Positions 28,038 to 46,691 of a stretch of 64,000 nucleotides of DNA are shown here, piece after piece. A program made the translations under genes and the position numbers. The notes beneath the pieces were generated by a model, which saw only the letters and a list, made by a program, of their open reading frames with translations, did no database searches and had not been told where the DNA came from. Within the stretch, counting starts at the first letter, position 1. Each line of letters begins with the position of its first letter. This stretch comes from Tabrizicola sp. (GTDB lineage Bacteria; Pseudomonadota; Alphaproteobacteria; Rhodobacterales; Rhodobacteraceae), in NCBI RefSeq assembly GCF_030373185.1, contig NZ_JAUCZH010000001.1, positions 62,001-126,000 of the forward strand, written 5' to 3'.

Positions 28038-28333
28038 CCGCCTACTGGATCGCCCATGTCACCGTGACCGACCCGGAGGCTTACAAAGGCTATCAGGCGC
28101 TGGCCCCTGCCGCCTTCGCCGCCCATGGCGCGCGGTTCCTTGCGCGGGGAGGAGAGGCGGAAACGCTGGAAGGCCCGCTTCTGGACCGCCATGTCGTGAT
28201 CGAGTTTCCGTCGATGCAGGCGGCCCGGGCCTGCTACCACTCCGACGCCTACGAGACCGCGCGGGCCTGCCGTGACGGCGCTTGCGTGGCGCATGTGGTG
28301 ATCGTGGAAGGCTTGCCCGGAACCCGGCCTTAA
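28034..28333 (+). CDS. DUF1330 domain-containing protein
   Basis: A 99-aa ferredoxin-like (dimeric alpha/beta barrel) protein of the DUF1330 family, recognised by YWIAHVTVTDPEAYKGYQ, ARFLARGGEAETLEG, RHVVIEFPSMQAA and YHSDAYETARACR. The function of this family is not settled; members often accompany catabolic genes. Its ATG overlaps the gntR stop as ATGA. Its own stop overlaps the convergent glycerate kinase stop by 4 bp, so no room is left for a separate terminator. Confidence 0.85.
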   Translation: MTAYWIAHVTVTDPEAYKGYQALAPAAFAAHGARFLARGGEAETLEGPLLDRHVVIEFPSMQAARACYHSDAYETARACRDGACVAHVVIVEGLPGTRP

Positions 28334-29592
28334 CCCGGCAGGATCAAGACCGCGCGGAAGTCGTTCACATTGGTCAGGGTCGGGCCAGTGACCACCTGCG
28401 CCCCGATCATGCCGAAAAAGCTGTGGGCATCGTTGCGCGCCAAGGCGTCGCCTGCATCTACGCCCGCCGCCCGGGCTTGCGCCAGCGTATCCGGCCCGAT
28501 CACCGCCCCCGCCACTTCGGCTGCGCCATCCACCCCGTCGGTATCGCAGGCGATGGCGTGGATGTTTGCGGCACCGTTCAGGGCCAGTGCCATGGCCAGA
28601 CAGAATTCCGCATTCGGCCCGCCGATCCCGCTACCGCGCCGGGTAACGGTCAGCTCACCACCCGACAAAAGCAGCACGGGCCGTGCGCCGGGTTGCATGG
28701 CCTTGGCGATGTCCAGCGCCATCGCGGCCTGTGCCGCCGCCACCTCGCGCGCTTCGCCTTCAAGGCTGTCACCCAGAAGCCGCACGTCAAGGCCCGCCGC
28801 CCGCGCCACTTCTGCCGCCGCCGCAAGGGATTGCGCGGGGGCGGCGTAGATCACGTTCTCCACCCGCGCCAGCCGCGCATCGCCCGGCGCAATCACGCCC
28901 GACCGTGCCAACGCCAAATGCACCGAAGCCGGCACCGGCACCGACCAGCGCGCCAGCACCTCGGCCGCGTCAGCCGGGGTTGTCGCGTCACCCACCGTGG
29001 GGCCAGAGCCGATGAAGGCCGGGTCATCCCCCGGCACATCCGAGATCAGCAAGGCCAGCATCCGTGCCGGGTAGGCCGCCGCCGCCAACTGCCCGCCCTT
29101 CACCCGGCTCAGGTGTTTTCTGACCGTGTTCATCGCCGAGATCGGCGCACCTGACGCCAGCAAGCTTGCGTTCACCAACTGTTTTTCGGCCAGAGTTACC
29201 CCATCCACCGGCGCGCATAGCAAGGCCGAGGCCCCGCCGGAAATGAGCGCCAGCACGAAATCCCCTTCACTAAGGCCCTGCAACAGCGCCAGCATCCGCG
29301 CGGTTGCATCCGCCCCTGCCGCATCCGGCACCGGGTGCGCCGCCTCGACAATCTCGATCCCCCGGCAGGGGCGCGCGTAGCCGTAGCGGGTGATGACCAG
29401 CCCGTCACACGGCCCCCAGACCGCCTCCACGGCTTCGGCCATCCGGGCGCTGGCCTTGCCGGCACCGATCACCACCACCCGGCCCGGTGGCTTTGCCGGC
29501 AGGAAGCGGGCCAGTGACCGCATCGGGTCTGCCACCTCGACCGCCCGGTCAAAAAGGCTGCGCAGAAAGGTCTTGGGGTTGGAGATGGTCAT
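28330..29592 (-). CDS. Glycerate 2-kinase (MOFRL family)
   Basis: A 420-aa kinase of the TtuD/GckA glycerate kinase family, converting D-glycerate to 2-phosphoglycerate for entry into lower glycolysis. Motifs are VVVIGAGKASARMAEAVE near 40, ISGGASALLCAP near 115, VRKHLSRVKGGQLA near 155, SDVPGDDPAFIGSGPT near 185, and the MOFRL portion GGPNAEFCLAMAL with HAIACDTDGVDGA. It is the last gene of the 16-gene operon, 5 bp after the LacI gene. It suggests that the pathway releases glycerate or hydroxypyruvate/tartronate-type C3 units. Confidence 0.9.
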   Translation of the reverse strand: MTISNPKTFLRSLFDRAVEVADPMRSLARFLPAKPPGRVVVIGAGKASARMAEAVEAVWGPCDGLVITRYGYARPCRGIEIVEAAHPVPDAAGADATARMLALLQGLSEGDFVLALISGGASALLCAPVDGVTLAEKQLVNASLLASGAPISAMNTVRKHLSRVKGGQLAAAAYPARMLALLISDVPGDDPAFIGSGPTVGDATTPADAAEVLARWSVPVPASVHLALARSGVIAPGDARLARVENVIYAAPAQSLAAAAEVARAAGLDVRLLGDSLEGEAREVAAAQAAMALDIAKAMQPGARPVLLLSGGELTVTRRGSGIGGPNAEFCLAMALALNGAANIHAIACDTDGVDGAAEVAGAVIGPDTLAQARAAGVDAGDALARNDAHSFFGMIGAQVVTGPTLTNVNDFRAVLILPG

Positions 29593-29597
29593 GCGTG

Positions 29598-30602
29598 TCA
29601 GCCCATGCTTGAGGCGCGAAGGATCAGATCAACCGGGGTTACGGTTTCCGGCCGGGGCTGCGTGCCGGTTTCCAGCCAGCCCAGCACGGTTTCGGCCACC
29701 CCGCGCCCGAACCCCGCGATATCGCAGCGGACCGAGGTCAGCCCCGGCCAAACTTGCGCACATTCCTCGATGTCGTCAAAGCCGACAACCTTCAGGTCGT
29801 GGCCCACCCGCCGCCCGATCTGGGCGCAACCGGACAGAATCCCCAATGCCACCAGATCGTTGAAGCACAGGACCGCATCCACTTCCGGGTGTTCGGAGGC
29901 CAGCCGCAAGGCCGCCTCGCGCCCGAAGGCGCGTCCCGGGCGGCCGGGCAGGTGCAAGGGGGCCATGCCCGCCGCGGACAAAGCCGCCAGATAGCCCGAC
30001 ATGCGCTGTTCGGTCACCTCGCGCCCTTCCAGCCCGCCAAGGAACGCAATCCGCCGCGCGCCGGTGGCCAGCAGATGATCCGTCGCCATCCGGCTGCCCG
30101 CCCGGTAATCCGGCACAGCAAACGGAAAGCGCGCCACATCCGGCACCGCCCGGCGCAAGACCTGCATTGTCGGCACATTGGCCCGGGCGATGGCGTCAAA
30201 TGTCGCTTCCACTTCACCATAGGCCGGCGACAGGATCAGTGCGGCCACGCCATGCTCCAGCATCGCCGCTACCACCTGCGCCTGCAAGGCGGGGTCTTCA
30301 TCGGTATTGGCCAGCACGCAGGCAAAGCCCTTGGCCGACAAGGCCATCTGCACCGACGTCGCAAATTCGGTGAAGAACGGATTCCTGAGGTCGTTGATCA
30401 CCAGCCCGATCAGCCCGGTATTCGACTGGCGCAATTGCGCCGCAGACCGGTTGTAGACATAGCCAAGGTCGGCCATCGCGCGGCGCACATCCTCGCGGGT
30501 CTCGGTCTTTACAAGGGGGCTGTTCTGCAAGACGAGGCTGACGGTCGATTTCGAGACGCCCGCCCGGCTTGCGACATCAATGATCGTTGGCCTGCGGTCC
30601 AT
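29598..30602 (-). CDS. LacI family transcriptional regulator
   Basis: A 334-aa repressor. The DNA-binding domain occupies residues ~5-60 (TIIDVASRAGVSKSTVSLVL, with hinge-helix SAAQLRQ). A periplasmic-binding-protein-like effector domain follows (IGLVINDLRNPFFTEFA, DAVLCFNDLVALGIL, VVGFDDIEECAQVWPGLTSV). It is embedded between the DUF993 and glycerate kinase genes. Two LacI-type operators found at the head of this operon (46705-46716 and 46727-46738) are its most likely targets, giving autoregulation of the whole cluster. Confidence 0.91.
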   Translation of the reverse strand: MDRRPTIIDVASRAGVSKSTVSLVLQNSPLVKTETREDVRRAMADLGYVYNRSAAQLRQSNTGLIGLVINDLRNPFFTEFATSVQMALSAKGFACVLANTDEDPALQAQVVAAMLEHGVAALILSPAYGEVEATFDAIARANVPTMQVLRRAVPDVARFPFAVPDYRAGSRMATDHLLATGARRIAFLGGLEGREVTEQRMSGYLAALSAAGMAPLHLPGRPGRAFGREAALRLASEHPEVDAVLCFNDLVALGILSGCAQIGRRVGHDLKVVGFDDIEECAQVWPGLTSVRCDIAGFGRGVAETVLGWLETGTQPRPETVTPVDLILRASSMG

Positions 30603-30608
30603 CGCGCC

Positions 30609-31778
30609 CTAACGTTGTTCTACCCCGTGCAGCGCCAGAAGCTGCGCCATGCGCGCTTCGGCCAGATCAGGCCGGGCCAGAAGGCCCGCCACATCCGCCA
30701 GCCGGAACACCGTTGCATAATGCGTGATGTCGCGGGACGATTGGAACCCTGCGGGCATGATGAAATGCCTCTGGTGGCCGTTCAGCCACGCAAGAAAGGC
30801 GATCCCGGCCTTGTAGAACCTTGTGGGCGCGCGGAAGATCTCGCGGGAAAGCGGCACGGTGGGGGCCAGAAGGCGGTGATAGGTAGCGCTGTCGCCCATG
30901 GCCAAAGCCTCCAGTGCTTGCGAGGCAGCTGGGGCGATGGCGGCGAAGATGCCCAGAAGCGCGTGGGAATGATGCGTGCTGTCGCCTTCGATCAGGGGCG
31001 CATAGTTGAAGTCATCGCCGGTATAAAGCCGCACCCCCGCAGGTAGCCGCGCGCGGAAGGATTCTTCATGTGCCTGATCCAGAAGGGAAATCTTGATCCC
31101 GTCCACCTTGCCAGGATTTTCCTCAATCAGCGACAGCACGAAGTCCGAGGCCTTGGCCACATCTGCCGATCCCCAGTAACCGGCAAGCATCGGGTCGAAC
31201 ATGTCGCCCAGCCAGTGCAGGATCACCGGTTCCGCCGCCCCGTCGATCAGGCGCCGATAAACGGTGCGGTAGACGTCCGGCCCCGCGCCAATTGCTGTGA
31301 AGGCGCGCGAGGCCATCAGGATCAACTGTCCGCCTGCCGCCTCGATTGCCTCGGCCTGCGTCTGATAGGCGGCGGCGATGGCGTCGGCGCCGGTCAGATC
31401 ACCCAATGCCACATGATCCGTCCCCGCCCCGCAAGCCACGCGCGGGCGCATCGGGTGGGTCTTGGCGGCAACCATGGTGCGCTGAATCAGTTCAAGCGCG
31501 GTGGCCCAATCCACCCCCATCCCGCGCTGGGCGGTGTCCATCGCTTCGGCAAGGTGGAGCCCTTGATCCCAGAGCTGGGTCCGGAAGGCCAGGGTCGCGT
31601 CCCAATCCACCGCCGGGCGGCCGTCCCATGGGCTGCGTTCGCGCAAGGGGTCACTGACCACATGGGCGGCGGCAAAGGCGGTGCGGGTTAGGGGGATGCG
31701 CGGTGCGCGGGGCTGAAGCGGCGTGCCGGTCAGGCGGTAGGGTTCAAGGCGGGCGTCTTCGGTGGGCAGGATCAGCAT
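30609..31778 (-). CDS. DUF993 family protein (dihydrodipicolinate synthase-like TIM barrel)
   Basis: A 389-aa protein of the DUF993 family, related to DapA/NAL-type class I aldolases. Family segments are DWATALELIQRTMVAAK, GAGTDHVALGDLTGADAIAA, PVILHWLGDMFDPMLAGYWG, KVDGIKISLLDQAHEESFR (with the Lys in GIKIS as Schiff-base candidate) and RLYTGDDFNYAPLIEGDS. The ATG at 31778 is chosen; the frame continues upstream to 32213 but that part is the Dabb gene in another register. It may perform a retro-aldol cleavage of a sugar-derived intermediate. The family's function is not established to my knowledge. Confidence 0.85.
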   Translation of the reverse strand: MLILPTEDARLEPYRLTGTPLQPRAPRIPLTRTAFAAAHVVSDPLRERSPWDGRPAVDWDATLAFRTQLWDQGLHLAEAMDTAQRGMGVDWATALELIQRTMVAAKTHPMRPRVACGAGTDHVALGDLTGADAIAAAYQTQAEAIEAAGGQLILMASRAFTAIGAGPDVYRTVYRRLIDGAAEPVILHWLGDMFDPMLAGYWGSADVAKASDFVLSLIEENPGKVDGIKISLLDQAHEESFRARLPAGVRLYTGDDFNYAPLIEGDSTHHSHALLGIFAAIAPAASQALEALAMGDSATYHRLLAPTVPLSREIFRAPTRFYKAGIAFLAWLNGHQRHFIMPAGFQSSRDITHYATVFRLADVAGLLARPDLAEARMAQLLALHGVEQR

Positions 31779-31878
31779 GGGCGATGTCCGGTTGTTGGCG
31801 CAGGTGTGGAATGGAGCGCTGGCGCGCAAGCCTTTTGTCTCGCCTCTGCGCGCGAAAGGCGCGCAATCGGCTCGGGTA

Positions 31879-31930
31879 ATGGGGGCGCTTCGCCCCCCAA
31901 ACCCCCAGAGAGTATTTGCGAAAAGAGCAA
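31879..31930 (+). repeat. Dispersed intergenic repeat, copy 1
   Basis: A GGGGGCG-ctt-CGCCCCC hairpin (31881-31897) is followed by the module AAACCCCCAGAGAGTATTT and an A/G-rich tail GCGAAAAGAGCAAG. A second copy with the same CCCCCAAACCCCCAGAG...TATTT core lies at 62781-62827 on the other strand. I recall similar elements scattered between genes in Rhodobacterales genomes, but cannot search here. It fills the 169-bp gap between the Dabb and DUF993 genes. Confidence 0.65.
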
Positions 31931-31947
31931 GGGACGGGAGGCGGCGA

Positions 31948-32268
31948 TCATCGGGGGGATCCGGTTGGCAGATCGAAGACCAGAAGGCCGTCAAGTCCGC
32001 CTTCGGCTGCCGCCACCAGTGCTGCGCCGACGCGTTTGTGGTCGGGGTGGTCCTGATAGGCGGCCAGTGATGCCCAATCGGCAAAGTCCACGGTGAAGCC
32101 GTGCATGTAGCCGCGCTCCATCTGTTCGGGGCTTTCGCTGCGGCCGGCGTGGATGGCGAGGATGCCGGGCAGTTTGGCCTTGATCGCCGCCAGATCGGCG
32201 AAGATCGCGGCAATCTCGGCCTCGGTCACGCCGGGGCGGGCTTTCATAAGGACGATATGGCGGATCAT
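31948..32268 (-). CDS. Dabb family (stress-responsive A/B barrel) protein
   Basis: A 106-aa dimeric alpha/beta barrel protein of the Dabb family, recognised by MIRHIVLMKARPGVTEAEI at the start, AIHAGRSESPEQMERGYMHG and WASLAAYQDHPDHKRVG. Family members include a few small enzymes (for example olivetolic acid cyclase) and many uncharacterised proteins next to sugar dehydrogenases. It overlaps the upstream GMC gene as ATGA. A 169-bp gap with a dispersed repeat separates it from the DUF993 gene. Confidence 0.85.
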   Translation of the reverse strand: MIRHIVLMKARPGVTEAEIAAIFADLAAIKAKLPGILAIHAGRSESPEQMERGYMHGFTVDFADWASLAAYQDHPDHKRVGAALVAAAEGGLDGLLVFDLPTGSPR

Positions 32269-33845
32269 GTGGCGGTTCCTTTGCGGATCATGTCAGCGGC
32301 TTTTTCGGCAATCATGATGGTGGCCGCGTTGGTGTTCGACGACACCACGCGCGGCATGATCGAGGCATCGGCCACCCGCAGACCAGCGATCCCGTTGAAG
32401 CGAAGCTGCGGGTCCACCACGGCGGCGGCGTCGCTGCCCATCCGGCAGGTGCCTGCCGGGTGGTGGTCGGTTTTCGAATGCTTGCAGGCGTAGTCGAAAT
32501 AGTCCTGATCCGTCCGCACATCCGGCCCCGGCAACCGTTCGGCGAGAACATAGGGTTTCAAGGCCGCTTGGCGCATCATTTCCCGTGCGAGTTTCAGCCC
32601 GCGGATCGACATGTCCCGGTCATGCGGGTCTGCCCAGTAGTTCGGGTCGATCAGGGGGGCGGCCTTCGGGTCGGCACTTGCCAGCCGCACCGTCCCCCGC
32701 GACCTTGGGCGGAGGTAGGCGGAGTTTAGCGTGACCCCGCCTTGCGGCATGGCGGCCACCCCAGCCTCGATCCCGGACCCGAGTCCAAGGTGGAACTGGA
32801 TATCCGGGCTGCGGGCATCAGGGTCGGCGTACCAGAAGCCACCGGTTTCAAAGAGCGAGGAGGCGACGGGGCCACGCCGCGTCAGCAGGTATTGCAGCCC
32901 GGCGAGGGCCGAGAGATGCGGCTTGGCGAAGCGGTCATAGGTATGCGGGCCGGTGCATTCGGCGATCACGAACAGGTCCAGATGGTCTTGCAGGTTTGAC
33001 CCCACGCCGGGCTGGTCCAGCACCACCGGGATGCCGAGGCTACGCAGATGATCCGCCGGGCCGATGCCGGAGAGTTGCAAGAGGCGGGGGGAGCCGATGG
33101 CGCCGGACGACAGGATCACCTCGCCCGCCCGGATCACGCCATCGGGCGTTTCGACCCCGACGGCGCGGCCCTGTTCCACCACGATCCGCAAGACCTGCGC
33201 CCCGGTCCGCACCGTGAGGTTCGCCCGCCCCCGCGCCTGCCCAAGGTAGGCGATCGAGGTGGAGGAGCGGCGGTAGTTCCGCTGGGTCAACTGGTAGTAG
33301 CCGACGCCGTCCTGCACCTCGCCCGTCATGTCCATGTTGCGGGGGATGCCCATTTCGGCGGCGGCGGCAAACCAGGCCTCGCAGATCGGCAGGGGCGCGC
33401 GGGGCTGGCTGACGCCCAAGGGGCCGCCCTTGCCGTGGTAGCGGTTGTCAAAGGTGTCGTTATCTTCAGCCTTGCGGAACCAGGGCAGGACATCCTCATA
33501 GGACCAGCCGGGACAGCCCAGTTGCCGCCATTCGTCATAGTCCTGCGCGTTGCCGCGCGTGTAGATCTGCGCGTTGATGGATGACCCGCCGCCGATGACC
33601 TTGGCTTGGGTATAACGGATCACCATCCCGTTCATGTGGCGCTGCGGCACGGTCTGCCAGCCCCAGCTGCCGATGCCCTTGGTCATCTTCGCGAAACCGG
33701 CGGGCAGGTGATAGAACGGGTGGCGGTCGCGCCCCCCGGCCTCCAGCAGCAGGACACGGGCGGTGGGGTCTTCCGACAGCCGCGCCGCCAGCACGCAACC
33801 CGCCGAGCCGCCGCCGATGATGATGAAATCATAACCCTCGGTCAT
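32265..33845 (-). CDS. GMC family oxidoreductase (choline dehydrogenase-like)
   Basis: A 526-aa FAD-dependent alcohol oxidoreductase. The dinucleotide-binding motif is IIIGGGSAGCVLAARL, followed by LLLEAGGRD, the GMC signature VIGGGSSINAQIYTRGN near residue 85, SSGAIGSPRLLQLSGIGP near 265, and the catalytic His region THHHPAGTCRMG (HPAGTCRMG near 465) with VSSNTNAATIMIAEKAAD at the end. The start at 33845 (MTEGYDF) is preferred over an upstream GTG/TTG. It has no signal peptide. It probably oxidises a hydroxyl group in the imported compound, delivering electrons to a quinone or other acceptor. Confidence 0.9.
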   Translation of the reverse strand: MTEGYDFIIIGGGSAGCVLAARLSEDPTARVLLLEAGGRDRHPFYHLPAGFAKMTKGIGSWGWQTVPQRHMNGMVIRYTQAKVIGGGSSINAQIYTRGNAQDYDEWRQLGCPGWSYEDVLPWFRKAEDNDTFDNRYHGKGGPLGVSQPRAPLPICEAWFAAAAEMGIPRNMDMTGEVQDGVGYYQLTQRNYRRSSTSIAYLGQARGRANLTVRTGAQVLRIVVEQGRAVGVETPDGVIRAGEVILSSGAIGSPRLLQLSGIGPADHLRSLGIPVVLDQPGVGSNLQDHLDLFVIAECTGPHTYDRFAKPHLSALAGLQYLLTRRGPVASSLFETGGFWYADPDARSPDIQFHLGLGSGIEAGVAAMPQGGVTLNSAYLRPRSRGTVRLASADPKAAPLIDPNYWADPHDRDMSIRGLKLAREMMRQAALKPYVLAERLPGPDVRTDQDYFDYACKHSKTDHHPAGTCRMGSDAAAVVDPQLRFNGIAGLRVADASIMPRVVSSNTNAATIMIAEKAADMIRKGTAT

Positions 33846-33849
33846 TTCG

Positions 33850-34626
33850 TCAAAGCCTTTCAATCGACAGCCCGCCATCGACGGGGATCACCGCCCCGGT
33901 GGCAAAGCTCATCTGCCCCGTGACCAGTGGCAGGACTGCACGACCGATATCTTCGGGTTGTCCCCAGCGCCCGGCAGGCACCAGCCCGCCCTCGATCCGG
34001 GCGGTGTATTTGTCCTTCACGCCCGCCGTCATGCCGGTCTCGATGATGCCGGGGCGCAGTTCGAACACGCCGATCCCGTGCGGTGCCAGCCGCAAGGCCA
34101 GCGTCTGCGCAGCCATTGCGGCGGCGGCCTTCGATATGCAGTAGTCCGCCCGTTCCGGGCTGGCCATCTGCGCCGAAACCGAGGTGATGAAGGTGATCGA
34201 CCGGTAGTGATCAGCGGGGGCGTCAAGCATGGCCTTGGCCACCGCCTGCGCCAGAAAGAACGCACCGCGCAGGTTGATGCCCATGATCCAGTCGAAATTC
34301 TCAGGACTGATCTCCAGCATGTCGCCGCGCACCCGGGCCGCGACGCCCGCGTTCTGCACCAGGGCGGTAATCGGCCCCATCGCCTTTTCGACGGTATCGA
34401 GCAGTATGGGAATCCGCCCGACATCCGCCAGATCGTGCCGGAAATAGCGCGCGCCCGGTCCAAGCTCGGCCAATGCCGCCGCGACGCTGCCATCCTCAGG
34501 CGCCGATCGTGACACCAGTGCCAGCCGCCAGCCAGCCGCCGCAAGCGTTCGGGCGATGCCAAGGCCGATGCCCTGCTGGCCTCCGGTGATCAGGGCAAGT
34601 GGGGTGGTGGCAAGGGGGGCAGTCAT
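33850..34626 (-). CDS. SDR family oxidoreductase (3-ketoacyl-ACP reductase-like)
   Basis: A 258-aa classical short-chain dehydrogenase. The cofactor motif is TGGQQGIGLGIA (TGxxxGxG), followed by VQNAGV (NAG), the catalytic Ser in FITSVSAQMAS, YCISKAA (YxxxK) near residue 163, and the C-terminal GAVIPVDGG. Length and motifs match sugar-alcohol or ketoacyl reductases. It sits between two GMC genes: its start overlaps the upstream GMC stop by 4 bp, and a 4-bp gap follows before the next gene. Confidence 0.89.
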   Translation of the reverse strand: MTAPLATTPLALITGGQQGIGLGIARTLAAAGWRLALVSRSAPEDGSVAAALAELGPGARYFRHDLADVGRIPILLDTVEKAMGPITALVQNAGVAARVRGDMLEISPENFDWIMGINLRGAFFLAQAVAKAMLDAPADHYRSITFITSVSAQMASPERADYCISKAAAAMAAQTLALRLAPHGIGVFELRPGIIETGMTAGVKDKYTARIEGGLVPAGRWGQPEDIGRAVLPLVTGQMSFATGAVIPVDGGLSIERL

Positions 34627-36110
34627 GGCATGGCCTTTGCGATATGGTCGCCCGCCCGCAGCGCAAGGGCGGCAATGGTCAGCGAGGGGTTCACGGCGGC
34701 AGAGGTCGGCAGGACGGAGGCATCGATGATGTAGAGGTTATCCAGATCATGCGCGCGCAGGTTTGCATCCACCACCGAGACCGCGGGGTCCGCGCCCATC
34801 CGGTTGGTGCCGCATTGGTGGCTGGGCTTTGACTTCGGAAACCCCCGCGACATTACGATCGGCCAGCCTGCCTTGCGCATTGCGCGGGTCAGCCGTTTGA
34901 CCAGCAACTCATGCGCCTTGACGTTGGTCTTGCGCCAGTCCAGCACCACCCCGCCGTTTTTCCACATCACCCGACTATCCGGGTCGGGCAGGTCTTCCGA
35001 CATGGCCATGATGTGTATCGAGTGGTCCGCCACATGCCGCGCCAGCCACAGGGGCAGCCCGGCCTCTCCGGCCAGGATCGGCCCGGTGATCCGGCCCAGC
35101 ATCTGGATATTGCCCAAGGGTTCGCCTTGCGGCCCGCCGGTCAGGTAGAAATCATTGACCTGTATGGTCTTTTCGTAAACCGTCCGGTTCCGGCGCAAGG
35201 GGTTCCATGCCACCATCCCCGTCAGGTTGTGGTTCATGAAGTTCCGCCCCACCTGATCGGACCGGTTGGCCAGCCCCCCTGGATGGTCGCCATTGGCCGA
35301 CGCCAGCAAAAGCGCCGCCGACATCACCGCCCCGGCACAAAGGCAGACCACGGGCGCGGTCATCACCTCGCGCTGGCCGGCTCGTTCAACCTCCACCCCC
35401 GTGACCCGGCGGCCTTCGGACAAAAGGCGCACGACCCTGGTTCCGGTCAGCAGCGTGACATTGGGATGGCGCAAGGCTTCGGCCAGCCCACAGCTTTCGG
35501 CGTCGGACTTGGCACCGGTCGTATCGGGAAAGGCGTCCCATGTGGTGGGCGCGCGGGCCAGCCATGCGTCAAGGTCCACGCCCAGGGGCAGGGCGCTGGC
35601 ATGAAGCCCTTGCGCCGCGAAGGCCCGGCGCAGGGCGCCGATATCGGGCTCATCCGGCACAGGCGGGAACGGGTAGGGGGCAGAGTGGGGCGGCTCTGAC
35701 GGGTCGCCCGCCACATCACCCCGCACGCGGTAAAGCTGTTCGGCGCGGCTATACCACGGCTCCAGCGTGTCATATCCGATGGGCCAGCCCGGAGTGACCC
35801 CGCCAATGTGGCGCAAGGGCGCGAAATCCTCGGCCCGGTAGCGCAAAAGGACCGCACCGTAGAACTTGGTATTGCCGCCGACAAAAGCATAGTTGCCGGG
35901 GTTGAACGGGCGGCCTTCACCGTCATGCCACATCTCGGGCGGCCTGAAATGCCCGCGCCGGAAGATGGCATCGGGGTCGCGCGCCTCGGCGGTGTCCGGC
36001 AAATGCTCACCCCGTTCAAGGATCACGATCCGCCGACCCGAGGGCGCAAGGGCCGCAGCGAGGGTGGCCCCGCCCATGCCCGACCCGATAATGAGAACAT
36101 CAGGCTGCAT
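34623..36110 (-). CDS. GMC family oxidoreductase (sugar/glucoside dehydrogenase-like)
   Basis: A 495-aa FAD-dependent oxidoreductase only distantly related to the second GMC protein of this operon. The FAD motif is VLIIGSGMGGATLAAAL, followed by FVGGNTKFYGAVLLRYR, LCAGAVMSAALLLASAN, SHQCGTNRMGADP (catalytic His region near 430) and LPTSAAVNPSLTIAALALRA. It resembles glucoside-3-dehydrogenase/fructose dehydrogenase large subunits, which act on sugars, but no small subunit or cytochrome gene lies beside it. The ATG shares one base with the ABC ATPase stop (TGATG). Confidence 0.87.
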   Translation of the reverse strand: MQPDVLIIGSGMGGATLAAALAPSGRRIVILERGEHLPDTAEARDPDAIFRRGHFRPPEMWHDGEGRPFNPGNYAFVGGNTKFYGAVLLRYRAEDFAPLRHIGGVTPGWPIGYDTLEPWYSRAEQLYRVRGDVAGDPSEPPHSAPYPFPPVPDEPDIGALRRAFAAQGLHASALPLGVDLDAWLARAPTTWDAFPDTTGAKSDAESCGLAEALRHPNVTLLTGTRVVRLLSEGRRVTGVEVERAGQREVMTAPVVCLCAGAVMSAALLLASANGDHPGGLANRSDQVGRNFMNHNLTGMVAWNPLRRNRTVYEKTIQVNDFYLTGGPQGEPLGNIQMLGRITGPILAGEAGLPLWLARHVADHSIHIMAMSEDLPDPDSRVMWKNGGVVLDWRKTNVKAHELLVKRLTRAMRKAGWPIVMSRGFPKSKPSHQCGTNRMGADPAVSVVDANLRAHDLDNLYIIDASVLPTSAAVNPSLTIAALALRAGDHIAKAMP

Positions 36111-39522: not shown

Positions 39523-40409
39523 GCCTTCTTCTCCTTCAGCTCGGCATAAAGGTAGGGGACCATGATGGCGGCGATGGTCATCAGCATGATCACGGCGCTA
39601 GAGGCGCCGATGCCCATCTGGTTTCGCGTGAACGTGTAGGAATACATGAAGGTCGCGGGCATTTCCGTCGCGCGTCCCGGCCCGCCCCCGGTCAGGGCAA
39701 CCACAAGGTCATAGGACTTGATGGCAAGGTGGCTCAGGATGACGAAGGCCGACAGGAACGCGGGGCGCAGAAGCGGGATCACGATCCGCCGGTAAAGCTG
39801 CCAGTTCGACGCGCCGTCGATCTGGGCCGCCTTCAGGATTTCGTTGTCGATCCCGCGCAGGCCCGCCAGAAACATCGCCATCACGAAACCGGATGTCTGC
39901 CAGACAGCCGCCAGCACGATCGTATAGATCGCCATGTCGCTGTCCTTGATCCAGGTGAAGCTGAAACTTTCCCACCCCCATTGCCGCATGATGTTCTGCA
40001 AGCCGATGCCGGGGTCAAGGAACCACTTCCACGCCGTCCCGGTGACAATGAACGACAGCGCCATCGGGTAAAGGTAGATCGGCCGCAGCATCCCCTCGCC
40101 CCGGATCTTCTGGTCAAGGAAGATCGCCAGCATCAGGCCGATCACGGTGCATATGACGATGTAAAGGCTGGCAAAGATCGCGATATTGGTGATCGCGGTG
40201 TTCCAGGCGGGCAGGGCAAAGAGCTTTTCGTAGTTCTCGAACCCCACCCAGGTGAAGCGGGGCAGCATCTTTGACCCGGTGAAGGACAGCACGATGGTGA
40301 ACAGGATGAAGCCGTAGACAAAAAGCAACGTCACCGCGAAGGACGGTGCAAGCACAAGGCGCGGCAGCCAGTCTTGCAGGCGCGTGCGGAAATCGGCGTC
40401 AGTGGCCAT
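39519..40409 (-). CDS. Sugar ABC transporter permease (MalF type)
   Basis: A 296-aa permease with six predicted helices and the EAA coupling region LRGIDNEILKAAQIDGASNW near residue 195. It pairs with the MalG-type permease encoded next. The ATG at 40409 (MATDADFR) is chosen; the frame is open upstream to 40439, but that would include the promoter-proximal hairpin spacer. A 114-bp gap with two tandem hairpins separates it from the first binding-protein gene. Confidence 0.9.
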   Translation of the reverse strand: MATDADFRTRLQDWLPRLVLAPSFAVTLLFVYGFILFTIVLSFTGSKMLPRFTWVGFENYEKLFALPAWNTAITNIAIFASLYIVICTVIGLMLAIFLDQKIRGEGMLRPIYLYPMALSFIVTGTAWKWFLDPGIGLQNIMRQWGWESFSFTWIKDSDMAIYTIVLAAVWQTSGFVMAMFLAGLRGIDNEILKAAQIDGASNWQLYRRIVIPLLRPAFLSAFVILSHLAIKSYDLVVALTGGGPGRATEMPATFMYSYTFTRNQMGIGASSAVIMLMTIAAIMVPYLYAELKEKKA

Positions 40410-40436: not shown

Positions 40437-40485
40437 CAAAATCCTTGAGCAAGGATTTTGACAAATTCCTTACTCAAGGAATTTG
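40437..40485 (-). repeat. Tandem palindromic hairpins between binding-protein and permease genes
   Basis: Two perfect inverted repeats stand 1 bp apart: CAAAATCCTT-GAGC-AAGGATTTTG (40437-40460) and CAAATTCCTT-ACTC-AAGGAATTTG (40462-40485). They are near-copies of one 24-bp element with 10-bp stems and 4-base loops. They sit in the intercistronic gap after the first binding-protein gene, where other ABC operons carry stabilising or attenuating hairpins. Their AT-rich sequence contrasts with the GC-rich surroundings. Confidence 0.75.
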
Positions 40486-40523
40486 GTGCGAGGGGCGACC
40501 GTGGCCGCCCCCCCAGTTGACGG

Positions 40524-41777
40524 TTACTGCGCAGCTGCAACCGCGTCGGCCAAAGCCGCTGCTGCTGCCGTCCCATCGGCATATTCGCCGTTGAAGGCCG
40601 CCGTGATCACGTCATAGGTCGCGTTCTTGACCGAGGCCGGGGCGGCATGGCCATGCGCCATCGACCCGAAGAGCGTGCCGCTGTCGTTGGCCGCCGCAAG
40701 GTCGGCCATGGCCTTCTTGCCGCAATCGTCAAAGGCATCGTTCGGCACGTCCGTCCGCGCCGGGGCCGAGCCCTTGACCACGTTGAACGCCGACTGGAAC
40801 ACCGGGTTCATGATCGCCGAGGCCATCGCCCCCTGCGCCGCAACCGCGCCTTCACCCGACACACCGAACATCGCGAACTGGTCGGAGTTGAAGGTGACCG
40901 CACCCTGCGTGCCGGGGAAGCGGATGCAGACGAAATCCGCGCCCGGAACCTTGCCGGCATTCACGAACTCACCCTTGGCCCAGTCGCCCATCATCTGCAT
41001 GCCCGCCTCGCCATTGATCACCATGGACGAGGCCAGGTTCCAGTCGCGGCCCGAGAAGTTCTCGTCGACATAAGAGCTGAGCTTGATCAGCCGGTCGAAG
41101 GCCTCGGCCATCTGCGCGCCGCCAAGCGCCTCAGGGTCGAGGTCGATGAAGGCGGCCTTGTAGAAGTCGGTGCCAAGGCCGAGGACAACCGCATCAAACA
41201 CCGTCGCGTCCTGCCAGGCCTGCCCGCCATGCGCCAAGGGGGTGATCCCGGCGGCCTGCATTGCATCGAGGATGGCGACCAGTTCTTCCCAGGTCGTCGG
41301 CTCGCCAAGGCCGGTTGCATCCAGCGCGGCCTTGTTGATCCAGACCCAGTTGGTGGAGTGGACATTCACCGGCGCCGCAATCCACTTGCCGTCGTATTTC
41401 GAGAAGCCCTGCAATGCCACCGGCACCACGGCATCCCAGCCTTCGGCGGCCGCCACGTCGGTCAGGTCGCCCAAGGCACCTTCGCCGGCCCAGTCAAGGA
41501 TGTCGAAACCCAGCATCTGCACGGCCGTCGGCGGGTTGCCAGCGGTGACCCGGGCGCGCAGAGCGGTCATTGCCGCCTCACCGCCGCCACCGGCCACCGG
41601 CATGTCGACCCAGCCGATCGACTTGGTGCCAAGGTCGTCCTTCAGCACGTTCAGGGCAGCAGCCTCGCCGCCCGAGGTCCACCAGTGCAGCACTTCCACG
41701 TCTTCAGCGGCGGCCATTCCGGTCGTGGCCATCAGCGCCGCGACCATCGTCATCTTCCGTCCTACAATACCACGCAT
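40524..41777 (-). CDS. Sugar ABC transporter substrate-binding protein (paralogue 2, upstream)
   Basis: A 417-aa family 1 solute-binding protein with a Sec signal peptide ending near TTGMAAA. It shows [69 protein letters not shown] and [20 protein letters not shown] (each a separate segment). The ATG at 41777 has GGAGG 5 bp upstream; an earlier in-frame start at 41810 has no such site. Being first, before both permease genes, it is likely the main receptor. The paralogue at 37297-38547 follows the permeases. Confidence 0.9.
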
Positions 41778-41828
41778 GAGATCCTCCCTAAGGTTTGCGT
41801 CGTCATTCATTCCCGCCCCGGTCAGGGG

Positions 41829-43358
41829 TCAGGCCGTCTTCACCCACATCGCCCGCGTGCGGCCGATCCGCATCACCAGCGATTTGGTTTCCAGAAACTC
41901 CTCCAGCCCCTGCCGCCCGATTTCGCGGCCAAGGCCCGATTGCTTGACGCCCCCGAAGGTCACCTCGGGGAAGCCGTCCATCCAGGTATTCGTCCAGACC
42001 GTCCCGGCCTGCGCCCCGCGCGCAAAGGCAAGGCAGGTATGGACATTCTCGCTCCACACCCCTGCGCTCAGGCCATAGTCGGCGTCATTGACCAGCCCCA
42101 GAGCCTCCTCCAGCGTGCGGAAGGTCAGCACCGTCAGGACCGGGCCAAACACCTCGTCCCGCGCAATTGCCATGTCGGGGGTCACCCCCGTCACCACGGT
42201 CGGTTGATAGAACTGCGCCCCAAGGCCGGGGACGCTTAGCGCAGCACCGCCCAGCACGACCTTTGCGCCTGCGGCCTTTGCCGCAGTAACATAACCGTCA
42301 ATCTTCGCCCCATGCTCGGGCGTAACAATCGCGCCCACCTGTGTTTCCGGGTCCAAGGGATCGCCAAAACCCACCTTGCGCGACAGCGCGACCACCTTGG
42401 CGGTAAATGCCTCGGCAATGTCCGCATGCACGATGATCCGGCTGCTGGAGTTGCAGCACTGGCCGACGTTGAAATAGACGCCGAACACCACCGCATCCGC
42501 CGCACTCTCCAGATCGGCATCGGGGAAAATGACCTGAGGGTTCTTGCCCCCCAGTTCCAGCGCTACCTTCTTCAGCGTGCCGCTTGCCGCCGCCGCAATC
42601 GCCCGACCTACGCCGGTTGACCCGGTGAAGGTCACCATATCCACCCTTGGGTCAGCCGCCAGAACCGCACCGACCGGCTGGCCATAGCCGAGAACGATGT
42701 TGACCACGCCATCCGGCATCCCGGCCTTGGCCAGCAACTCGCCCAGAATGACGGTGGTCGAGGGTGTCAGCTCCGACGGCTTCACAACGCAACAGCACCC
42801 CGCCGCAAGGGCAAAGGGCAGCTTCTGGCTCAGGATCCAGAACGGAAAATTCCACGGCGTGATGATCGAGACCACGCCAATCGGTTCTTTGAGAGTGACC
42901 GCCAGAATATCGCCCCCAAGCGCGTTGTGGCTTTCCCCCGTCACCCCCCGCGCAAGGCTGGCCGCATAGCGCCAAAGGTCCGCCGCCCCGCCAACCTCAC
43001 CGCGCGATTGGCTGATCGGCTTGCCACTTTCCAGAGTTTCCAGCAGCGCCATCCGCTCCACATTGGCCTCGATCAGATCGGCCACACGAAGCAGCACCGC
43101 CGCCCGCGCCTTGCCCGGCAGTCCGCTCCAACGCCCGTCGTCAAAGGCCGCCCGCGCCGCCGCAATCGCGGCCTCGGCCTCGGGCGCGCCACCCTTCGCC
43201 GCGCGGCTGACCACCACGCCGTGCGAGGGCGAAATCCGCTCGCTGACCGCTCCATCGGCGCTGTCCATCCAGACGCCGCCGATCAGGTGGCGGGCGTGGA
43301 ACGGCGCCGCAGGAAGCGCCGCACCGATAGAGGGGATTACCGTCATGTCAGTCATCAT
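41829..43358 (-). CDS. Aldehyde dehydrogenase (NAD(P)+-dependent)
   Basis: A 509-aa ALDH of the betaine-aldehyde/aminoaldehyde-like group. Motifs are ITPWNFPFWILSQKLPFALA (substrate channel Asn), FTGSTGVGRAIA, LELGGKNPQVIFPDAD (catalytic Glu), NVGQCCNSSSRIIV (nucleophilic Cys) and DEVFGPVLTVLTF. The ATG at 43358 overlaps the enoyl-CoA hydratase stop (TGATG). The reading frame extends much further upstream to 43886, but that part is only an off-frame reading of the hydratase gene. It would oxidise an aldehyde intermediate of the catabolic operon. Confidence 0.9.
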   Translation of the reverse strand: MMTDMTVIPSIGAALPAAPFHARHLIGGVWMDSADGAVSERISPSHGVVVSRAAKGGAPEAEAAIAAARAAFDDGRWSGLPGKARAAVLLRVADLIEANVERMALLETLESGKPISQSRGEVGGAADLWRYAASLARGVTGESHNALGGDILAVTLKEPIGVVSIITPWNFPFWILSQKLPFALAAGCCCVVKPSELTPSTTVILGELLAKAGMPDGVVNIVLGYGQPVGAVLAADPRVDMVTFTGSTGVGRAIAAAASGTLKKVALELGGKNPQVIFPDADLESAADAVVFGVYFNVGQCCNSSSRIIVHADIAEAFTAKVVALSRKVGFGDPLDPETQVGAIVTPEHGAKIDGYVTAAKAAGAKVVLGGAALSVPGLGAQFYQPTVVTGVTPDMAIARDEVFGPVLTVLTFRTLEEALGLVNDADYGLSAGVWSENVHTCLAFARGAQAGTVWTNTWMDGFPEVTFGGVKQSGLGREIGRQGLEEFLETKSLVMRIGRTRAMWVKTA

Positions 43359-44125
43359 CAGTTTCCCGGAAATTCTGGTTTGCGCTTGGCGCGGAAGGCG
43401 GCGACACCCTCGGCCTTGTCCGGGCTTGCGGCAATCGCCGCCGACCCCAGCGCCTCGATCATCGCGGCACTGTCCTCGTCCAGCCCGGCATGGATCATTG
43501 CCTTGGTGACCTCCACAGCCCGAGGCGAAAGCACTGCCACGCCGCCCGCAATCGCATGGGCCGCCGTGCGGGCATCCACCGCCACCTCGGCCACAAAGCC
43601 GCAGGCCAGCGCCCGGTCGGCCCCGATCCGCCGCCCGAAAAGGGCCATCTCCTTGACCACCCCTTCGGGCAGCAACCGCGCCAGCCGCTGCGTTCCCGAC
43701 CAGCCCGGCACGATGCCCACGCCAGCCTCGGGCAGGGCAAGCGTCGCCCCCGGCGCCATCACCCGGATGTCGCAGGCCGCTGCCAGTTCCAGCCCGCCCC
43801 CGAAGGCATGGCCATTCAACGCCGCAATCGTCGGCTTGCCCAACCGCGCCAGCCGGTCGAACAGCCGATGCCCGCCCCGCACCCAATTGCGGGCGAACTC
43901 CACCGGGGGCAGATCGCCCCAGGCGTTGATATCGGCACCCGAACAGAAGGCACGGTCGCCTTCGCCCGTCACCACCACCGCCCGCACCTCTGTGCGCCCC
44001 TCGACAAGGTCCAGATGCCCGGCCATCTGCGCCAGCATCTCCACCGTGAAGCAGTTCAGCTTGGCCGGATTGTCGAGCCTGATTTCGGCCACGCCCCCAG
44101 CAATATGCAGACGAACCCCGCTCAT
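43358..44125 (-). CDS. Enoyl-CoA hydratase/isomerase family protein
   Basis: A 255-aa crotonase-fold enzyme. Seen are EIRLDNPAKLNCFTVEM, AFCSGADINAWG (first oxyanion-hole segment), AALNGHAFGGGLELAAACD (second oxyanion region) and LALPEAGVGIVPGWSGTQRL with the catalytic-Glu position in LPEAGVG. It would hydrate, isomerise or cleave a CoA thioester made by the CoA-transferase encoded upstream. The ATG at 44125 overlaps the transferase stop as ATGA, and its own stop shares a base with the ALDH start. Confidence 0.89.
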   Translation of the reverse strand: MSGVRLHIAGGVAEIRLDNPAKLNCFTVEMLAQMAGHLDLVEGRTEVRAVVVTGEGDRAFCSGADINAWGDLPPVEFARNWVRGGHRLFDRLARLGKPTIAALNGHAFGGGLELAAACDIRVMAPGATLALPEAGVGIVPGWSGTQRLARLLPEGVVKEMALFGRRIGADRALACGFVAEVAVDARTAAHAIAGGVAVLSPRAVEVTKAMIHAGLDEDSAAMIEALGSAAIAASPDKAEGVAAFRAKRKPEFPGN

Positions 44126-45693
44126 GGCTGCCACCCCATCGGGCCTTCCGACAGCAAGGATAGCGGCATGACTACAGCGTTTTCCGCCACCGACACCCGC
44201 CCGCCCGAGGCCGCCACGATATCACGACCCGGATCAATCCCCGGCATGATTTCGGTCGCCACAAGGCCCTTTTCCGTCAGCCGGATCACGCAGCGCTCCG
44301 TCACATAAAGCACCTCTTGCCCCTGTTCGCGCGCGCGGGCGCCGGAAAAGGTGACATGCTCCACCGCCTCAACCATCTTGGCGAACTTGCCGGGGCTTGC
44401 CACCCGCAAGCCGCCTGCGGTCAATTCGACCGCTGCCCCCGCCTCGAACCAGCCAGAAAACACGATCTTGCGCGCATGGGCGGTGATATCGACAAACCCG
44501 CCGCAACCCGCTGTCAGATAAGGCTTCTTTCCCAGCTTGGAGACATTGACGTTGCCTTCAACATCGACCTCCATGAAGGACAGGAAAGCCATGTCAAAGC
44601 CTGCGCCCTGAAAATAGATAAACTGCTGCGGGCTTGGCACGAAGGCATCGGCATTGGACGCACAGCCAAAGGCAAAGCCGGTCAGCGGCATGCCGCCCAC
44701 GGCCCCCTGTTCGATGGCCCATGTCACGGCCTCGGGGTGGCCTTCTTCCAGCAGGATGCGAGGCACCATTGCCGAAATCCCGAAGCCAAGGTTCGCCGTC
44801 ATCCCGGCCCGCAGCTCCATCGCGGCGCGGCGTGCGATGACCTTTTCGACCCCATGTTCAGCCAGATGAAAGCTTGACCAAGGCCGCATGATCTGGCCCG
44901 AGATTGCCGGATCATAAACCGTCTCGCAGGTCTGCTTCTGGTCGGGGTCCAGAACGATCAGGTCAACCAGATGCCCCGGCACCCGCACATCATGCGGGCG
45001 CAAAGACCCCTTGGCCGTCACGCGCGATACCTGCGCAATCACCACCCCGCCGTTATTGCGCGTGGCAATCGCCTGCTCGAGGCCACCCAGATAGGCGCCC
45101 TCATGCTCATAGGTCAGGTTGCCGCGTTCATCGGCCGTGGTGGCGCGCAGGATGCAGACATCGGGGCAGATGTTGGGAAAATGCAGCCATGTCTCGCCGC
45201 CAAATTCCACCCGTGATACGATGGGGTCAGCGGCGGCCCGATCGTTCATCGCGCAACCCTCGCGGACCGGATCGACAAAGGTCTGGAGGCCGATCCTGGT
45301 CAAGACCCCCGGCCGCCGCGCCGCCGCCTCGCGGTGCATGTCGAACATGATGCCCGATGGCACGTTATAGGCGGCCACCCGGTCCTCGACCACCATCTTC
45401 CAGATTTCCGGCATCGGCAGGTTGGAACTGCCCGACGGATAAGACCCCGCCAGCACCCGCGCCAGAAGACCGTCCTGAGCAATCCAGTCGATGCCCTTGA
45501 CCCCGTACATGTCGCCCGCCGCAATCGGGTGCAGCGTGGTCAGCCCGCGCGGATGGCCAGTGTCCCGGAAGCGTTCCCCCAGCGCCTTCAGCACCAGATC
45601 CGGGCAGCCAAGCGCCGAGGATGAGGACACTGTGACCACCGCCCCATCCGTGATGCGCGCCACAGCCTCGGCAGGGGAAACCAGCTTGGTCAT
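44122..45693 (-). CDS. Acyl-CoA:carboxylate CoA-transferase (fused alpha/beta, YdiF type)
   Basis: A 523-aa family I CoA-transferase with the alpha- and beta-type halves fused. It activates a carboxylic acid by transferring CoA from a donor such as acetyl- or succinyl-CoA. The beta-half has the catalytic-Glu motif in AIEQGAVGGMP near residue 335 (family E-N/Q-G) and a Gly-rich segment LGFGISAMVPRIL. The C-terminus includes ERCVIRLTEKGLVATEIMPG, typical of this group. Start and stop overlap both neighbours by 4 bp. With the hydratase it forms a CoA-ester module inside a sugar-type operon. Confidence 0.9.
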   Translation of the reverse strand: MTKLVSPAEAVARITDGAVVTVSSSSALGCPDLVLKALGERFRDTGHPRGLTTLHPIAAGDMYGVKGIDWIAQDGLLARVLAGSYPSGSSNLPMPEIWKMVVEDRVAAYNVPSGIMFDMHREAAARRPGVLTRIGLQTFVDPVREGCAMNDRAAADPIVSRVEFGGETWLHFPNICPDVCILRATTADERGNLTYEHEGAYLGGLEQAIATRNNGGVVIAQVSRVTAKGSLRPHDVRVPGHLVDLIVLDPDQKQTCETVYDPAISGQIMRPWSSFHLAEHGVEKVIARRAAMELRAGMTANLGFGISAMVPRILLEEGHPEAVTWAIEQGAVGGMPLTGFAFGCASNADAFVPSPQQFIYFQGAGFDMAFLSFMEVDVEGNVNVSKLGKKPYLTAGCGGFVDITAHARKIVFSGWFEAGAAVELTAGGLRVASPGKFAKMVEAVEHVTFSGARAREQGQEVLYVTERCVIRLTEKGLVATEIMPGIDPGRDIVAASGGRVSVAENAVVMPLSLLSEGPMGWQP

Positions 45694-46691
45694 GCCGCCA
45701 CCCCGTAATCCACCGCTTGCCGAACGCCTGTCCGCGCCGCCGTCCGCACGGCCAAGGCCACGGCCAGAGAGGCCACCCCATCGCGCCCATCCGCCGCCGG
45801 TCGGCCCTTGCCCGCGACCGCTGACAGGAAATCCGTCACCGCCTGGGCGTAAAGATTGTGGGTGGGGTAGGGGACAACCTCACGCCCCTTGTCTCCCATC
45901 AAGACAATCTCGCCCACCGGCCGCTGCGTCATCACACCTGTCGCGAAGATCGAGCCTTCGGTGCCATGCACCTCCAGCCCCGACCCGGCGAAAGGATGCG
46001 TGAAACTTTCATGCGCCATCACCATCGCGCCTGACGGCATGGTCCAGACCGACATCACGCTGTCTTCCACCCCCTGACCCATGCCGGAAGATACCATCTC
46101 GGCCACCACCGACACCGGGTCTTCGCCCAGCAGGAACCGTGCCACGTCGGCGTCGTGCACGGTGATGTCGGGGATCACCCCGCCCCCCGCGCCCGGATTG
46201 TCGATCCGCCAGCCCTGCAAATGGCCCGGCAGATGCACCGCGTGGAAAAGTCGCAGCGACAAGACCCGCCCGATCTGCCCGCTGGCGATCAGCCCTCGCA
46301 CGGCACGGTGGCTGCCCGAACAGCGCAGGTGGTGGTTGGTGGCAAAGACCAGGCCCCTTGCCTTGGCCGCAGCGACCATTTCGCTGGCTTCGGCGACCGT
46401 CATCGCCAAGGGTTTTTCGCACAAGACGTGCTTGCCTGCCGCGATCGCTGCCAAAGCCTGGGCGTGGTGCTTTTCATTGGTAGACGAGATGTAGACCGCG
46501 CCGATCCCTTCATCGGAAAGGATGGCGCCAAGGTCGGTGGCATATCCCGCAATCCCCTGTGCCTTGGCAAACTCGCTTGCGCGGGCGACCGTAGAGCTTT
46601 GCACAAGGGCCACATCTTCGCCCGCAGCCCGAAGCGCGCCAATCACATGTTCCGCCGCGATCGTGCTTGCCCCTACCAATGCCCAGCGCAT
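45690..46691 (-). CDS. Gfo/Idh/MocA family oxidoreductase
   Basis: A 333-aa NAD(P)-dependent dehydrogenase. The Rossmann motif is WALVGASTIAAEHVIGAL, the EKPLA motif is in HVLCEKPLAMT near residue 95, and GGGVIPDITVHDADVARFL near 175 matches the catalytic GGxxxDxxxHxxD pattern fully. It likely oxidises a sugar, inositol or related polyol. It is the first gene of the 16-gene operon, immediately downstream of the LacI-operator promoter. The GGGGG stretch before the ATG serves as Shine-Dalgarno. Confidence 0.9.
   Translation of the reverse strand: MRWALVGASTIAAEHVIGALRAAGEDVALVQSSTVARASEFAKAQGIAGYATDLGAILSDEGIGAVYISSTNEKHHAQALAAIAAGKHVLCEKPLAMTVAEASEMVAAAKARGLVFATNHHLRCSGSHRAVRGLIASGQIGRVLSLRLFHAVHLPGHLQGWRIDNPGAGGGVIPDITVHDADVARFLLGEDPVSVVAEMVSSGMGQGVEDSVMSVWTMPSGAMVMAHESFTHPFAGSGLEVHGTEGSIFATGVMTQRPVGEIVLMGDKGREVVPYPTHNLYAQAVTDFLSAVAGKGRPAADGRDGVASLAVALAVRTAARTGVRQAVDYGVAA

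Follow-up and report, generated by a model that had tools for sequence, protein, structure and literature searches.

1,5-Anhydrohexoses are 1-deoxy analogues of glucose or mannose and lack the free anomeric carbon on which ordinary sugar pathways rely. For Rhizobiaceae, the relevant sections of a 2025 review (PMC12441222) trace 1,5-anhydro-D-fructose (1,5-AF) through 1,5-anhydro-D-mannitol (1,5-AM) to mannose, with the last step given to an unidentified P450-like enzyme, and for the anaerobic gut they cite Ma et al. for a 1,5-anhydro-D-glucitol (1,5-AG) pathway that uses phosphotransferase system (PTS) phosphorylation and glycyl-radical enzymes. An oxidative 1,5-AG pathway analogous to the 1,5-AF route is, according to the same sections, not described. 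Here we analyze a 64-kb stretch of DNA from Tabrizicola sp. (the window), in which sixteen co-directional genes on the minus strand fill the whole interval from 28330 to 46691 (Table 1). On balance, the evidence leans toward a LacI-controlled aerobic catabolic operon for 1,5-anhydrohexoses, with a coenzyme A (CoA) route to 2-keto-3-deoxy-D-gluconate (KDG) and cleavage by a DUF993 protein.

The operon shares with the Sinorhizobium morelense system for 1,5-AF catabolism (Kuhn 2006, as cited in PMC12441222) an orthologous leading gene for 1,5-anhydro-D-fructose reductase (AFR); the published route has a hypothetical P450 leading to mannose, whereas the genes here point to a CoA route to KDG. The anaerobic gut pathway acts on the same substrate class, but its PTS and glycyl-radical enzymes are not among these sixteen genes (the operon, to which the search was confined, holds no glycyl-radical enzyme). 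In the catabolism of 3,6-anhydro-L-galactose by agar degraders, the sugar is oxidized to an acid, the ring is opened to give a 2-keto-3-deoxy acid, and Entner-Doudoroff-type reactions follow. An anhydrosugar acid would be opened to a 2-keto-3-deoxy acid here as well, but by a CoA-transferase and a crotonase rather than by an enolase-superfamily cycloisomerase. In the 2-keto-3-deoxy-L-fuconate/L-rhamnonate diketo-hydrolase pathway, a short-chain dehydrogenase/reductase (SDR) carries out an oxidation, after which C-C hydrolysis yields pyruvate and a hydroxy acid; the logic proposed here is the same, with DUF993 in place of the fumarylacetoacetase-type hydrolase. Among the matches listed in the open-access literature there was no paper on this operon and, in agreement with an earlier preliminary description of the locus, no described pathway with such a combination of genes; no DUF993 paper was found in that literature either. 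The S. meliloti protein SMc04132 and its neighbors are entries in one expression table in the accessible part of PMC12542648, and the accessible parts of PMC4960864 and PMC13259140 contain nothing bearing on the steps of the pathway.

The preliminary description had overlooked that the leading gene, a Gfo/Idh family member, is by its sequence an AFR, and it is this gene that supplies the substrate class. Against PDB sequences, its bit scores are 360 and 348 for the two solved AFRs and 91 for the next entry, which is full-length orthology (over 323 positions of 4koa and 330 of 2glx) far above that to other Gfo/Idh proteins. K93 (the Lys of EKP), D175, and H179, which we take to be the catalytic motif residues of AFR, are present in all 45 aligned proteins, 2glx and 4koa among them. 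The S. meliloti Ak57 operon, which has the same genes, encodes an AFR with 99.7% identity to 4koa (itself presumably an S. meliloti protein), and therefore a solved AFR sits in the operon type found here; 2glx is the S. morelense enzyme, as stated in the accessible part of PMC5969746. By orthology, the Tabrizicola enzyme would catalyze the NADPH-dependent conversion of 1,5-AF to 1,5-AM. Among the operon enzymes, only AFR has relatives with a known reaction on 1,5-anhydrosugars. The binding protein SBP1 is 70% identical to 4r2b, a structure titled "with bound glucose." We conclude that the substrates are very probably 1,5-anhydrohexoses. The second binding protein, SBP2 (37297 to 38547), occurs in few relatives (G015, G032, G077, G118, and G231).

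Window proteins were compared by tblastn with 111 loci and also with annotated records. The search for the same gene order that the preliminary description had proposed shows that the content, and largely the order, recur in Rhodobacterales and Hyphomicrobiales. Peteryoungia desertarenae has the identical order with all genes except the second binding protein, in S. meliloti Ak57 the order is LacI-AFR-CoAT-ECH-ALDH-ABC-GMC-SDR-GMC-GlyK, the DUF993 gene is divergent, and a Dabb gene is lacking (abbreviations as in Table 1), and Microvirga and Rhizobium carry variants of the same plan. For the CoAT locus on pSymA of S. meliloti 1021, the record carries no annotation. AFR is found in 26 of 295 family genomes, and every one of the 26 also encodes a CoAT with 76% identity or more; at 25 of the 27 AFR places the CoAT gene is no more than 2.2 kb away. 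For named DUF993 loci (24 chosen and 23 genomes searched, with L043 left out), AFR is present at 62 to 75% identity in 20 genomes; of the other three, the sole match in L102 is a 46% relative outside its cluster, on another contig, and L050 and L039 have no AFR. The named-locus and family samples overlap, in that G308 and G310 appear to be G107 and G047 (same coordinates). Sagittula and Paracoccus versutus carry a sister set, ALDH-GMC-CoAT-ECH-SDR-DUF993 plus an acyl-CoA dehydrogenase, which suggests that the CoA logic serves other sugars too. Sister CoA-dependent clusters at L115 and L121 contain SDR-DUF993, acyl-CoA dehydrogenase, aldo/keto reductases, and a sugar isomerase.

Across the 3.6-Mb genome there is a single exact copy of the core TGGAWCGWTCCA, located upstream of the first operon gene; a reversed-pattern control occurs 0 times. 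Besides the two cores listed in Table 1, the window has one further match with 2 or fewer mismatches (7988). Palindromes of the form TTTGGAACGTTCCAAA, mostly paired ~20 to 30 bp apart, are found upstream of AFR in 20 of 20 regions, which were selected by hand among the available ones and include the window. In S. meliloti, the same palindrome lies between the divergent DUF993 and LacI genes. Sites with no more than 1 mismatch number 75 in 1.016 Mb of operon loci and flanks versus 5 in 426 kb of comparison loci (L064 to L085), four of which (L065, L066, L068, and L072) themselves carry the operon. The motif TGGAACGTTCCA is a candidate operator, presumably bound by the operon's own LacI. Because the gene set recurs in other genera, and also in another order, and the operator core is unique in the genome, the operon is not a product of chance.

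Based on the AFR family, the conservation of the operon, its operator, its intact catalytic residues, and an exchange of DUF993 for a flavoprotein in related operons, all read from sequence, we infer every reaction of the following pathway except that of AFR, which is assigned by orthology. A glucose-type ABC importer would take up 1,5-AF, 1,5-AM, or possibly 1,5-AG, and GMC1 and AFR would interconvert the C2 oxidation states, converging on 1,5-AM. C6 would be oxidized to the acid by GMC2 and then ALDH. CoAT would form a CoA thioester, of which C5 is the alpha carbon, and ECH would remove the C4 hydroxyl to give an enol ether, whose hydration would open the ring to KDG or a KDG thioester; the opened chain, with a C6 carboxyl, a C5 ketone, and a C4 CH2, would be a 2-keto-3-deoxyhexonate. 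The SDR would oxidize KDG to a diketo acid, DUF993 would split this to pyruvate and D-glycerate, and GlyK would phosphorylate glycerate to 2-phosphoglycerate, while in sister operons a KDG-type kinase would take over in place of the DUF993 branch. We consider it rather probable that CoA activation precedes ring opening. In a reversed Fischer projection of the anhydromannitol chain, worked out by hand, the hydroxyls fall right/right, which would be the D-erythro form and would give D-KDG and then D-glycerate; an anhydroglucitol start would give the L-threo form and an L three-carbon product. Since AFR makes the manno product, it would set the stereochemistry for D-KDG and D-glycerate.

The enzymes proposed for these steps retain their expected residues. 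E328 of CoAT, presumably the catalytic Glu of the EQG motif of family I (YdiF-type) transferases, is present in 58 of 58 aligned proteins, and ECH has both of the Glu residues of crotonase hydratases, E116 and E136 (60/60), which we assume to be the catalytic pair from rat crotonase. Likewise conserved are C302 and E268 of ALDH (56/56), H431 (55/55) and N474 (54/55) of GMC1, H473 and N517 of GMC2 (54/54), and Y162 and K166 of the SDR (43/43). Several other assignments were rejected. For fatty acid degradation via FadX, CoAT scores 314 bits against the NCBIfam FadX equivalog, whose cutoff is 750; for steroid-type ring cleavage (IpdAB-like), the CoA-transferase is YdiF-like and retains the presumed catalytic Glu; for C-glycoside 3-oxidation (CarA-like), the nearest solved relatives of GMC1 by sequence are glucose and fructose dehydrogenases; and a mevalonate/HMG link was met only beside the Sagittula cluster.

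The AlphaFold model of DUF993 matches 4dnh (SMc04132) in Foldseek, followed by DHDPS, YagE, NAL, and KD(P)GA, and thus has the TIM-barrel fold of the DHDPS/NAL/KDGA superfamily. K229, in a GIK motif, is invariant in 44 sequences and lies within strand 225-231 (strand 6); placed by motif and strand order, it is probably the Schiff-base Lys on strand β-6. The β-5 Tyr of the DHDPS type is absent, and H188, on strand 185-190, is invariant in 44 of 44 sequences at the presumed Tyr position. Because of this replacement, ordinary aldolase chemistry is not assured for DUF993, a point that counts against our pathway as well as against a simple aldolase. We regard DUF993 as a divergent branch of the DHDPS/NAL/KDGA class and do not file it as a KDG aldolase. 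An enolase-superfamily gene accompanies DUF993 at 34 of 110 loci and CoAT does so at 21; no locus has both, and 55 have neither, the last including short flanks and loci with CoAT past the 10-kb flank. Since the enolase gene and CoAT never occur together, DUF993 seems to follow a dehydrating step, for which an enolase-type dehydratase would serve in some loci and CoAT plus crotonase in others. Loci L116 and L120, together with the 34 among L002 to L111, have DUF993 with an enolase-superfamily protein, mostly with Gfo/Idh and a xylose-isomerase-like protein, and no CoA module.

The alternative with the most in its favor, although we judge it the less probable course, is that DUF993 is a plain KDG aldolase yielding glyceraldehyde, which ALDH would oxidize, with the SDR acting upstream. 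The fold and the probable β-6 Lys are those of the superfamily, a glycerate 2-kinase is present, and in S. meliloti the SDR is ~12 kb from DUF993. However, H188 takes the place of the presumed β-5 Tyr throughout, and both the presence of Gfo/Idh in 33 of the 34 enolase-type loci and the position of the SDR immediately before DUF993 in Sagittula, Caballeronia, and Paracoccus suggest oxidation before cleavage. We therefore mildly favor cleavage of an oxidized 2-keto-3-deoxy acid to pyruvate and a hydroxy acid. When the odds for the pathway are split, a diketo-acid hydrolase is a tentative assignment for DUF993 and a plain KDG aldolase a close second.

Related operons exchange DUF993 for an FAD protein, a 689-amino-acid FAD_binding_2 flavoprotein that is succinate-dehydrogenase-like (L122, 6952 to 9021, and relatives). 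DUF993 lies within 20 kb of CoAT at 14 of 38 CoAT places, and the FAD protein accompanies CoAT at 13; no place has both, and 11 have neither (Fisher P = 8.5e-4, for relatives that are not independent and with several of the "neither" places at contig ends); this tally leaves out CoAT matches of 40 to 61% identity and a second AFR fragment in G118. The flavoprotein is present in 16 of 295 genomes, 15 of them with CoAT. In the examined stretches of the 13 FAD loci, there is no SDR in 12 (G077 retains one) and no GlyK in any, and 11 have a second Gfo/Idh, of which the one scanned scores 305 bits against the levoglucosan dehydrogenase model (cutoff, 650). A PfkB kinase is found in 7 of 13. The three of these kinases that were scanned have the KDG kinase KdgK as top NCBIfam family at 230 to 263 bits, with the next family at 104 to 113. 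The exchange recurs in a different arrangement in Rhizobium CCGE532, where the order is LacI-AFR-CoAT-ECH-ALDH-ABC-GMC1-GMC2-Gfo/Idh-FAD protein-kinase. A 53%-identical kinase in Sulfitobacter lies within a cluster with glucuronate isomerase (uxaC) and mannonate dehydratase (uxuA), enzymes that lead to KDG. Copies of the operator (no more than 1 mismatch) are found at the FAD-protein/Gfo genes in 8 of the 13 loci (G007, G025, G055, G077, G082, G086, G104, and G262). Flanks of the DUF993 operons are short except in G231, G121, G291, and G034, so that the absence of a kinase there is less well tested. KDG is the likelier node at which the two lower branches, DUF993 on one side and the FAD protein and kinase on the other, meet.

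The preliminary description had placed the CoA ester last, as the finishing step, so that the CoA module would act on a short acid released by DUF993. This order now appears improbable. It agrees with the finding that the best solved relative of the crotonase by sequence is 3-hydroxypropionyl-CoA dehydratase, but CoAT-ECH is kept in the 13 FAD-protein loci that have no DUF993 within 20 kb, 4 of which have AFR, and the 20-kb stretch of G007 shows just the FAD protein, CoAT, ECH, and LacI. Because CoAT-ECH adjoins AFR in operons whose examined stretch has no SDR, DUF993, or GlyK (G010, G025, G082, and G262), it looks like part of the upper pathway.

Several observations weigh against the pathway proposed here. 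Water addition at the alpha carbon of a CoA ester is unusual for a crotonase, and apart from AFR we found no measured reaction for any gene of the operon type. AFR is missing within 2.2 kb of 13 of 38 CoAT places (one of them, G285, at a contig end), and a 29-kb Bradyrhizobium plasmid stretch has AFR and GMC1 but no CoAT. Nine of the 13 FAD-type loci are without AFR, and because of this the CoA core may also serve another substrate. In 5 of 13 FAD loci (G001, G010, G015, G032, and G249) the FAD genes have no operator copy, in 6 of 13 no kinase was seen in flanks that differ in length, and the three scanned KDG-type kinases are under the NCBIfam KdgK cutoff of 400. The SDR-DUF993 pairing is not general, with an SDR in the examined flank of just 7 of 21 CoAT-type DUF993 loci. 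Finally, Kuhn 2006, as cited in the relevant section of PMC12441222, gives a different route, to mannose.

An alternative is that the substrate is some other sugar resembling glucose, or a glycoside, and that AFR acts on a different 2-ketose. In its favor, relatives of the binding protein are titled as glucose- or galactose-binding, and several CoAT operons without AFR have a levoglucosan-dehydrogenase-like Gfo/Idh (the single scanned score given above). We consider this improbable in light of the strong AFR orthology, the conserved active-site positions, and the fact that the operon type contains a solved AFR. Hydroxylation of 1,5-anhydromannitol at C1 to give mannose, as proposed for S. morelense according to section 5.1 of PMC12441222 (citing Kuhn 2006), with the CoA module serving something else, is very unlikely here. 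P450 genes do exist elsewhere in the host genome, but in the review the P450 is given as unidentified, no P450, other monooxygenase, mannose kinase, or isomerase is among the families of the 16 genes, and CoAT so regularly lies close to AFR (25 of 27 places).

All sixteen genes reported at this locus are present, and their family assignments stand in Pfam and NCBIfam: Gfo/Idh, fused CoA-transferase, enoyl-CoA hydratase, ALDH, two binding proteins, two permeases, an ATPase, two GMC proteins, SDR, Dabb, DUF993, LacI, and glycerate 2-kinase. The view of the set as one catabolic operon for a sugar-like compound that is oxidized, in which DUF993 and glycerate kinase belong to the lower part, is borne out. 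Overlaps of 1 to 4 bp, said to occur at most junctions, are found at 6 of 15; longer overlaps, of 13 and 29 bp, occur at 2 junctions, and at the other 7 the genes are 5 to 169 bp apart. The widest gap, of 169 bp (31779 to 31947, Dabb-DUF993), immediately precedes DUF993; it contains a GGGGGCGAAGCGCCCCC hairpin and no operator. GlyK scores 203 and 161 bits against the NCBIfam glycerate 2-kinase models, both under the cutoffs.

Table 1. Features of the operon and its upstream region (window coordinates)
Feature	Position	Strand	Basis
LacI operator core 1 (candidate), TGGAACGATCCA	46727..46738		Sole exact TGGAWCGWTCCA in 3.6 Mb; predicted LacI binding
LacI operator core 2 (candidate), 2 mismatches	46705..46716		Start 22 bp from core 1; relatives also have palindrome pairs
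Gfo/Idh, 1,5-anhydro-D-fructose reductase (AFR)	45690..46691	-	55.7% identity to 4koa, 52.7% to 2glx
Fused acyl-CoA:acetate/3-oxoacid CoA-transferase, YdiF type (CoAT)	44122..45693	-	2ahu, E 2e-95
Crotonase (enoyl-CoA hydratase, ECH); proposed ring-opening dehydratase	43358..44134	-	Pfam ECH_1
Aldehyde dehydrogenase (ALDH); proposed C6 aldehyde to acid	41829..43358	-	Pfam Aldedh, on longer frame
Substrate-binding protein SBP1, glucose-binding type	40524..41810	-	70% identity, TMq 0.87, to 4r2b
ABC permease 1	39519..40409	-	Pfam BPD_transp_1
ABC permease 2	38644..39522	-	Pfam BPD_transp_1
SBP2, SBP1 paralogue	37297..38547	-	Pfam SBP_bac_1
UgpC/MalK-type ABC ATPase	36110..37222	-	NCBIfam UgpC subfamily, above cutoff
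GMC1, FAD-glucose-dehydrogenase-like; proposed ring-carbon oxidase (e.g., 1,5-AG to 1,5-AF)	34623..36110	-	6a2u, E 1e-35
SDR, PRK12745 family; proposed KDG 4-dehydrogenase	33850..34626	-	NF009386, above cutoff
GMC2, choline-dehydrogenase-like; proposed C6 alcohol oxidation	32265..33878	-	NF002550, 560 bits, under cutoff of 605
Dabb protein	31948..32268	-	Pfam Dabb
DUF993, aldolase-type TIM barrel; proposed C-C cleavage to pyruvate and glycerate	30609..31778	-	AF2 pLDDT 91.8
LacI regulator	29598..30602	-	Pfam LacI; operator conserved alongside
Glycerate 2-kinase, MOFRL (GlyK)	28330..29592	-	Pfam DUF4147/MOFRL; 2b8n, E 7e-75

At the end of the operon, genes for a GntR/FCD regulator and a DUF1330 protein (27360 to 28333) are convergent on it, with a 4-bp overlap with GlyK. 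On the other side, divergent genes at 46893 to 49882 (an open reading frame for a DUF1537-type four-carbon acid sugar kinase, a FadR/GntR regulator, and an iron alcohol dehydrogenase) are probably a separate small-acid cluster.

Red algae produce 1,5-anhydrofructose, and an AFR operon is carried on a 49-kb plasmid of a Roseibium isolate (L190) whose source is recorded as the red alga Porphyridium cruentum. If smc04396 of S. meliloti 1021 is the operon's binding protein, starch-derived 1,5-anhydrofructose would fit as a substrate. The accessible part of PMC4960864 reports smc04396 to be dextrin-induced. According to the relevant sections of PMC12441222, 1,5-AG is found in virtually all analyzed foods, and an aerobic 1,5-AG enzyme would be needed for a probiotic that lowers 1,5-AG, a compound that does harm in two inherited neutropenias. 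The operon offers candidate enzymes for most steps of such catabolism, with the exception of Dabb and the hydration step, along with a stereochemical reason for AFR to make the manno product. The CoA-dependent opening of a sugar ether ring, which it may exemplify, and the reaction of DUF993, a protein for which this is the first proposed role, are testable proposals. Tentatively, and at somewhat short of even chances, the operon would be an aerobic 1,5-AG-type enzyme set in which a crotonase carries out CoA-activated ether-ring opening to KDG and DUF993, with its class I aldolase fold, founds a family of C-C hydrolases.

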